From: Pseudofulvimonas gallinarii
Lineage (GTDB): Bacteria > Pseudomonadota > Gammaproteobacteria > Xanthomonadales > UBA2363
Reading direction: 5' to 3'
Length of the DNA stretch: 64,000 nucleotides
Assembly: GCF_004343305.1 (NCBI RefSeq)
Contig: NZ_SMAF01000016.1
Location: forward strand, 1 to 64,000
Below the pieces are notes generated by a model. That model had not been told where the DNA came from, searched no databases, and saw only the letters and a program-made list of their open reading frames with translations. Below, one piece after another: positions 1 through 2,451 of the stretch; the stretch's first letter is position 1, and each line of letters starts with the position of its first letter. The position numbers and the translations under genes were made by a program.

Positions 1-924
1 CTGGCCGCGTTTTTGCGCCCTGTGTGCCGCCATCAGGGCAGAGCGCGCGCCGTGGATCAGCAGGGTGCGCAGGTACACATCGCCGCGCTTGCTGATGCGC
101 CCGAGCTTTCGACTGCCGCCGCTGGAATACTCGCGCGGGGTCAGGCCCAGCGCGCTGGCGAAGTGGCGACCGGAAGGAAAGCGGGCGAAGTCGCCGATGC
201 CCGCGCTCATCGCCGTGGCGGTGATCAGGCCGACGCCGCTGGCGGTCATCAGCCGCTGGCTGCGGGTATCGCCTTGGACGATCTCGGCCAGTTGCTTCTC
301 AATGCCGGCCATGGCGTCCTGGCAGGCAGTGATGCGATCAAGCATGCCGGCCAGCGCGTGACGCAGGGCCATCGGAATATCGTTGTCGGCATCCTCCAGT
401 GCCGCCAGCACGGCCGGGCGTACCTTGTCCGCCCCGGCGGGAATGGCGAAGCCGAACTCGCGCAGCAGGCCACGCACGGTGTTGATCGCGGCGGTGCGCT
501 CGGCCTTGTGGTGTTCGCGGACACGATGCAGCCCTTGCGTGCCCTGCTGCTCGGGCGTCTTCACCGGCACCGGACGGATATCGCCGCAGCGCGCCGCTTC
601 CAGCAAGCCGGCGGCGTCGGCGCGATCGGTCTTGTTGCGACGCACATACGGGCGCACATGCTGCGCCGGCAGCAACCGGACATCATGGCCCTGGCGGGCA
701 AAGCGCCGCGCCCATGCATGGGCAGAGCCGCAGGCTTCCATCACGATGCGCAACGGTGTGCGGTTCTCCAGGCACTGCGCAAACGCCCCGCGCCTGAGCC
801 GCTTGCGCGCGACGATGCGACCGGACCCATCGGCAAAGGCCAGCTCGAACACGTCATTGGCCAGGTCGACCGCCAGCATGACGGCGGAAGATTCAACAGC
901 GGGGGATTTGCTGGTAGCGTGCAT
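1..924 (-). CDS. IS110-family transposase (partial, C-terminus beyond window edge)
   Basis: Catalyses transposition of its own element by the RuvC-like DEDD/serine recombinase mechanism of the IS110 family. The 308 visible codons start at ATG 924 and run off the left edge. The DEDD acidic residues are visible as D20 (LAVDLAND), E63 (VMEACG) and D100/D103 (KTDRADA). The C-terminal Tnp20 domain carries the conserved serine block LTPREYSSGGSRKLGRISKR. The frame is intact throughout, so the element may be active. Only about 75-90 bp separate the start codon from the presumed element end, which fits the IS1111 subgroup better than the IS110 subgroup, where a long 5' leader encodes the bridge RNA. 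Family assignment is certain; subgroup is inference. Confidence 0.95.
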   Translation of the reverse strand, partial: MHATSKSPAVESSAVMLAVDLANDVFELAFADGSGRIVARKRLRRGAFAQCLENRTPLRIVMEACGSAHAWARRFARQGHDVRLLPAQHVRPYVRRNKTDRADAAGLLEAARCGDIRPVPVKTPEQQGTQGLHRVREHHKAERTAAINTVRGLLREFGFAIPAGADKVRPAVLAALEDADNDIPMALRHALAGMLDRITACQDAMAGIEKQLAEIVQGDTRSQRLMTASGVGLITATAMSAGIGDFARFPSGRHFASALGLTPREYSSGGSRKLGRISKRGDVYLRTLLIHGARSALMAAHRAQKRGQ

Positions 925-1010
925 GGCGGACTCCTCTCGTGATCCTGTGTCCGGAGACTATGCTCCTGTCTGGCTCTTCGAAGCCGTGTGGCGACGCGGG
1001 GGGAGTCCAT
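1..1010 (-). mobile_element. IS110/IS1111-type insertion sequence, one end visible
   Basis: The element comprises the transposase gene plus its short upstream flank. On the minus strand the flank begins ATGGACTCCCCC (about 999-1010), after which the sequence turns into recognisable attC-like DNA. I take that junction as the element's 5' end. IS1111 elements have subterminal rather than terminal inverted repeats and make no clear target duplication, so the exact base of the junction is uncertain by several positions. The other end and any bridge RNA lie outside the window. Confidence 0.6.
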
Positions 1011-1012
1011 TC

Positions 1013-1119
1013 GATCATTCAAGCCGACGCCGCTTCGTTACGCAAAGCACATGGCAGGAAAAGCTTGCCATGTGCTTTGCTCCACTACGCGTCTCGGCTT
1101 AACTTAGGCGTTAGATGCC
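1013..1119 (+). other. Integron attC-like recombination site (R'' side missing, interrupted by the IS)
   Basis: The order is CATTCAAGCCGACGCC (L''-like, from 1016), a long imperfect palindrome, TCGGCTTAACT (L'-like, 1094-1104), then AGGCGTTAGATGCC with the R' core GTTAGAT (1110-1116) fitting GTTRRRY. AAGCCGA of the left arm pairs with TCGGCTT of the right arm. The centre holds a perfect 15-bp inverted repeat, 1042-1056 against 1066-1080, with a 9-base loop, as expected of the variable part of an attC hairpin. The R'' box (RYYYAAC) expected just left of L'' is absent; the IS end sits there instead. Confidence 0.65.
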
Positions 1120-2439: not shown

Positions 2440-2451
2440 CAGGCGTTAGAC
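2440..2451 (+). other. Possible degenerate attC R' motif
   Basis: The string CAGGCGTTAGAC resembles the right end of the attC-like site at 1.1 kb (TAGGCGTTAGAT), and the preceding bases AGGCCTCAAT loosely match its L' box. No matching L''/R'' arms are found upstream, so this may be chance. Confidence 0.2.

Follow-up and report, generated by a model that had tools for sequence, protein, structure and literature searches.

An IS1111-type insertion sequence in integron attC sites of Pseudofulvimonas gallinarii, whose arrays start at several attI-like heads

The first 64,000 nucleotides of contig NZ_SMAF01000016.1 of Pseudofulvimonas gallinarii (RefSeq assembly GCF_004343305.1), hereafter the window, open with one end of an insertion sequence (IS) of the IS1111 family, which lies inside an integron attC site between its R'' and L'' boxes (window 1-1116). 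Copies of this IS stand at the equivalent position in three or more cassette arrays of the genome (G000), and these arrays start at three attI-like sites, one of them accompanied by the integron integrase gene intI. While the IS is a new element of the known IS1111-attC group, the unusual part is the host integron arrangement: several attI entry sites with one detectable intI, which, as far as the sequences can tell, is common to this genome and some of its relatives.

An IS1111-type end inside an attC site

The window coincides with contig C16 from its first base, and the transposase reading frame runs off at position 1; since the window begins at the contig start, the opposite IS end cannot lie inside it. 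The frame (coordinates of this and the other features in Table 1) matches both PF01548 (DEDD_Tnp_IS110, 2.7e-13) and PF02371 (Transposase_20, 9e-25), the two domains by which the attC-targeting IS1111 group is recognised, and reads from the L'' side towards the R'' side of the attC. Furthermore, the five IS junctions found in the genome (on C16, C22, C6, C7 and C19) display subterminal repeats of 12 bp, a left tip of 7 bp and a right tip of 3 bp, in agreement with the ends of IS1111 elements (subterminal inverted repeats of 11-13 bp, tips of 7 bp on the left and 3 bp on the right) in the available portion of PMC11187229, where ISPa25 and ISKpn4 are listed as targeting attC. An Rfam search gave no relevant match.

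Directly next to the tip, the DNA continues with TTCAAGCCGACG, the inner part of an attC, comprising L'' (AAGCCG), L' (CGGCTT) and R' (GTTAGAT). A covariance model built from seven attC sites (on C6 and C19 of this genome and at the loci L036 and L038), with the attC of the window outside the training set, matched positions 1005-1116 with 47 bits (E 5.5e-11), the runner-up among the three matches of this model in the 64 kb reaching 11.7 bits, and the site aligned well from L'' through R', breaking down at R''. Folded as single-stranded DNA, the bottom strand of 1018-1116 yielded -29.7 kcal/mol (z -6.2), with 0 of 200 shuffled sequences equally stable. Three boxes and the hairpin are hence present in the window, and R'' is found on other contigs, parted from them by the IS. 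A preliminary description, made from the letters of the window alone, had proposed an IS110/IS1111 element in an integron attC that retained L'', L' and R' within a hairpin and lacked R'', and had named a covariance-model search beforehand as a possible refutation; transposase domains, end structure, boxes and covariance match all support it, as does the comparison with the end sequences of IS1111-attC members, in which tips, subterminal repeats, orientation and insertion point agree. The change of DNA that it placed at about 1010 is real, but the border can be drawn more sharply, as the tip ends at 1017 and attC DNA starts at 1018.

A search of the genome for the subterminal repeat returned seven places (C16, C22, C6, C7, C19, C5 and C38). 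Left-end/attC junctions are present in the window and, with the same left end, at C22:1-105; right-end junctions are present on C6, C7 and C19, and the genome therefore contains at least three copies of the IS. The repeat ATGGACTCCCC on C5 and C38, considered as a mark of further IS/attC junctions, was rejected, being located in other DNA with no adjoining attC. Read in cassette direction, each of the three right ends consists of an R'' box directly beyond the IS end (GTCTAAC on C6, GCCTAAC on C7 and C19), a short spacer, the 3-bp tip TGT, the repeat ATGGACTCCCCC and then sequence common to the IS. In each case the R'' extension is complementary to the 5' end of its own cassette (GTTAGACCTCA with TGAGGTCTAAC on C6, GTTAGGCTGCAC with GTGCAGCCTAAC on C7, and GTTAGGCCGA with TCGGCCTAAC on C19), and the junctions therefore appear to be genuine cassette ends; C6 also has, one cassette before its junction, an intact attC of this type (73.1 bits). 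All five junctions (two left-end, three right-end) show the same orientation and insertion between R'' and L'', precisely the event by which the preliminary description had explained the missing box, and R'', which it expected in the left flank, stands on every contig carrying a right IS end (3/3). Its further expectation of an integron, or the remains of one, just left of the window holds as well, but the intI-bearing C7 is only one of three candidate right-end contigs. A search for a partner R'' of the cassette downstream in the window and of that on C22 found none. Behind the latter cassette, a 95-bp stretch (L004:589-683) is identical to the end of contig C4 (C4:209658-209752) and is probably the end of another repeated element.

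The transposase is 85% identical to that of L031, from a Lysobacteraceae metagenome-assembled genome (MAG), and its nearest named relatives in plasmids are ISPa25 (63.7% identity over 295 residues) and ISKpn4 (47.8%). By its relatives, the IS points to the Lysobacteraceae. These two, together with ISPst6, reportedly form the IS1111-attC group treated by Tetu and Holmes in 2008 and by Post and Hall in 2009. Among 80 related loci from named genome records, 35 have the repeat type of our element and 23 a GCGTCCAT repeat type, the other 22 being left unclassed by the strict pattern of the script, including L034, L035 and L095, which by eye do show an IS/attC junction. Among loci with enough flank, GTTAG or GTTAA stood no more than 15 bases from the right end in 27 of 33 with this repeat type and in a single one of 22 with the GCGTCCAT type. 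In the complete relatives L031, L032 and L035, both attC halves flank one IS; moreover, L031:2300-2920 holds two close-relative IS copies, inserted in consecutive attC sites and separated by a single cassette (IS-cassette-IS).

A GATAAC motif occurs in the noncoding region preceding the right end in 29 of the 35 loci of this repeat type. In L035 (a Lysobacter MAG), this region contains GATAACAATTCC and CGCTTGAACG, while the right flank reads TGAATTGTTAG and GGCTTGAA closes the left flank; two noncoding stretches thereby match both sides of the target, as described for seekRNAs, and matching stretches occur in L031 too. By analogy with published work on IS1111 elements, the IS would excise as a circle, and its transposase would carry a seekRNA copied from the region behind the transposase gene (tnp). 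One stretch of this RNA may pair with R'' and the spacer and a second with the target's L'' side, which would fix both the position and the orientation of the IS within every attC. Insertion would move R'' about 1.5 kb away from R', so that the attC could not fold as a single ordinary site any more, and would divide the array into one segment still joined to attI and another lying behind the IS.

As a whole, we consider an IS1111-type element that inserts in attC, has occupied at least three arrays, is targeted, as we propose, by a seekRNA and cuts the arrays to be the best explanation, with a probability of roughly 0.93. Several observations weigh against it: six of the 33 relatives of the same repeat type have no box at the right end; left and right IS ends are located on different contigs, whose pairing the assembly does not decide; the genome yielded three right ends but only two left ends; and the right-end spacers on C7 and C19 deviate by one or two bases from that of a canonical attC. 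In addition, the middle of the IS in this genome (the end of tnp and most of the noncoding region) is unassembled and its seekRNA guides are unreadable, and for the copy in the window we therefore only infer the guide.

Two isolated R'-like sequences without recognisable partner boxes were also noted. One, CAGGCGTTAGAC at window 2440-2451 (plus strand), matches the R' pattern with 0 mismatches and has no match to the attC model; it is possibly a relic of a further R' box, and possibly chance, as the window contains five pattern matches with at most one mismatch against 2.8 expected. The other, GGCTTAACCCAGGCGTTAG at C6:129473-129491, is situated between two copies of a short direct repeat.

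One integrase gene and five attI heads

A single integron integrase gene was found in the genome (C7:779-1720; 468.5 bits to TIGR02249, above the curated cut-off), besides four weaker integrase-profile matches (68-27 bits) on C3 and C28. Its protein possesses Phage_integrase and SAM-like domains, and the gene adjoins the IS junction of C7, where the attI side leads via one cassette into the IS; with intI, attI and a cassette, this contig appears to carry an integron. A query with the 261 bases of attI-head DNA from C7 returned five places in the genome, those on C6, C31, C19 and C2 being 75-81% identical to C7. Cassettes follow four of the five heads (C7, C6, C19 and C2), and three of these four arrays (C7, C6 and C19) are cut by the IS. 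The array of C2 contains two attC (44.9 and 24.9 bits), with the only intI of the genome on C7, and thus represents a cluster of attC lacking integron integrase (CALIN), a term used in the accessible text of PMC12444791 for at least two attC without nearby intI. As to traces of the gene, the C6 attI keeps a 39-residue intI remnant, and the intI-like DNA at C31 exceeds chance (score 706 vs at most 457 in 100 shuffles); at C31, attI is followed at the contig end by a frame which by eye resembles an IS66-type accessory protein. In our own reading, the heads carry a putative promoter-like sequence of TTGAC type. Columns 31-65 of the aligned heads, GTGATAAYRCATAACACTGCACSCWTGCCGGATAA, which span the intI start on C7, are nearly invariant in all five although four heads have no intI, and may therefore have a function of their own. 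The first cassette of the intI-bearing array (L011:112-519, minus strand) codes for a protein that looks secreted and consists of repeats resembling GYTDSLGNSTYR.

Table 1. Features of the window and attI heads of the genome
Feature	Coordinates	Strand	Remarks
IS1111-type transposase gene, first 308 codons	1-924	-	PF01548 and PF02371 matches; C-terminal part lost at contig start
IS left end	925-1017	-	12-bp subterminal repeat 999-1010 (GGGGGAGTCCAT on plus strand); 7-bp tip TCGATCA 1011-1017
attC remnant without R''	1018-1116	+	L'' 1021-1026, long hairpin, L' 1095-1100, R' 1110-1116; covariance match, fold
attI head	C7:549-646		intI adjoining; one cassette, then IS
attI head	C6:190255-190352		no intI; cassettes with attC; array cut by IS
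attI head	C31:25181-25277		no intI; altered core GTAAG
attI head	C19:55068-55165		no intI; cassettes with attC; array cut by IS
attI head	C2:37467-37563		no intI; cassettes with attC

In searches of the genus and of the family, both covering the same three genomes, the attI-head DNA was found in G000 only. The congeners G001 and G002 have intI and gave no match to a sequence profile of the five heads, which either counts against a genus-wide pattern or means that the profile misses their sites. Run on 398 genomes of the order (E <= 0.01), this profile returned 109 candidate sites in 65 genomes; an integrase profile was run on those 65 and on the two congeners. By coordinates, intI is intact next to 41 sites, truncated next to 6 and absent next to 62, the last being a count that ignores contig ends and includes weak matches, and 23 genomes combine an intact platform with at least one site without. 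At E <= 0.001, 66 sites in 42 genomes remained (28 intact, 5 truncated, 33 none), with both kinds in 10 genomes. At intact platforms attI and intI are 133-207 bp apart in 37 of 41 cases, a tight spacing demonstrating that attI is what the profile finds; trained on G000, it will miss distant attI, and weak matches near E 0.01 may be chance.

Forty loci (41 attI matches), picked by hand from the 109 sites and therefore not a random sample, were read closely, mostly with the intI side inside the contig (at L193, this side extends over just 767 bases). Intact intI accompanies 10 of these attI, a 5' remnant of the gene 11, and none 20. Among the 31 without intact intI, 25 have same-strand attC downstream and 26 retain the core GTTA, which is kept at all 10 intact sites. 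Around all 41 attI, 129 attC lie downstream and one upstream (on a contig with two tandem attI), a count in which 130 of 202 matches were entered, 72 having been dropped as, judged by eye, weaker opposite-strand echoes of the same sites. The attI cores are more alike within a genome (0.858; 30 pairs) than between genomes (0.700; 0 of 5000 label shuffles), which fits either recent copying in the genome or joint change with the resident integrase, and the data do not separate the two. In G115, each of three attI (L177, L178 and C29:855-949) adjoins an intI match restricted to the first 110-145 positions of the profile; a full-length intI was not found in that genome.

Origin and use of the arrays without intI

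The simplest history is that integron platforms were copied and that all copies but one then lost intI; for arrays without intI, PMC8618304 gives off-target insertion, loss of intI and rearrangement as proposals. Given the conserved core and the differences between arrays, it is plausible, we infer, that the remaining IntI acts in trans on the other attI sites. Extended to the order, this suggests, with about an even chance of being right, that chromosomal integrons are often many-headed: one IntI would act in trans on several attI, each a promoter-like head with its array, on dispersed platform copies devoid of intI; many CALINs would represent live daughter arrays headed by attI, and IS1111-attC elements would have spread through all of them.

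Alternatively, and with a likelihood that we place slightly under one half, the extra arrays may be dead relics, in which platforms were copied or acquired, intI decayed, and the remaining IntI is inactive on them. In favour of this are the 5' remnants at 11 of the 31 attI without intact intI, the mutated core on C31 followed by an IS-like frame, and the fact that intI loss has already been proposed for CALINs (PMC8618304); however, 25 of the 31 still head attC arrays and the GTTA core persists in 26. The greater likeness of attI within genomes points in the same direction, though recent copying alone could yield it. We regard it as very improbable that the five attI arose as an artefact of assembly or binning, with one integron repeated or foreign contigs mixed in: although the genome is in 57 contigs and every IS copy ends a contig, the attI copies differ by about 18-25% and have different first cassettes, their neighbours differ (for instance a HemN-like gene before the C31 attI and a 2-hydroxyacid dehydrogenase gene before that of C2), contamination is given as 0.25, and the same pattern recurs in genomes of 1 to 9 contigs (G372, 1; G267 and G213, 4; G328, 9). 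Hardly any weight can be given to the idea that the IS targets another attC-like palindrome, such as a repetitive extragenic palindrome (REP), outside any integron context: relatives of IS1111 with other targets do exist (ISPa11 and REP, in the portion of PMC11187229 cited above), but the attC match of the window, the R'' complementarity at 3/3 right-end junctions, the intact attC one cassette away on C6 and intI on C7 all weigh against it.

Comparison with known systems

For mobile elements, the IS adds a further case of the known RNA-guided type homing on attC, and three occupied arrays in one genome show the extent to which an IS can cut up an integron. The wider result is weightier than the IS: in this order, arrays that lack intI usually start at an attI-like head. 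This offers a concrete, testable origin for CALINs and predicts that one integrase can insert new cassettes at several chromosomal places. To our knowledge, the search for attI in widely used annotation software is confined to a few integron classes, so that these heads would be missed. A literature search found no paper on several attI with one intI, which, as preprints and most subscription papers were outside its scope, is weak evidence of novelty, and the consulted part of PMC12444791 does not describe attI at CALINs.

With the IS1111-attC group, our element shares the DEDD transposase with Transposase_20, the 12-bp subterminal repeats, the 7/3-bp tips and insertion in one orientation between R'' and L''; it differs in being 63.7% identical to ISPa25 and in the presence of at least three copies in chromosomal arrays of one genome. 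The host resembles single-platform chromosomal integrons, such as that of Xanthomonas in the same part of PMC12444791, in an intI divergent from attI and in an array with similar attC sequence, whereas G000 possesses five attI heads on five contigs, one of them with intI. Finally, like CALINs, arrays of G000 have no nearby intI while the genome keeps one elsewhere; what sets them apart is the identifiable attI head at which they start, often accompanied by a 5' remnant of intI.
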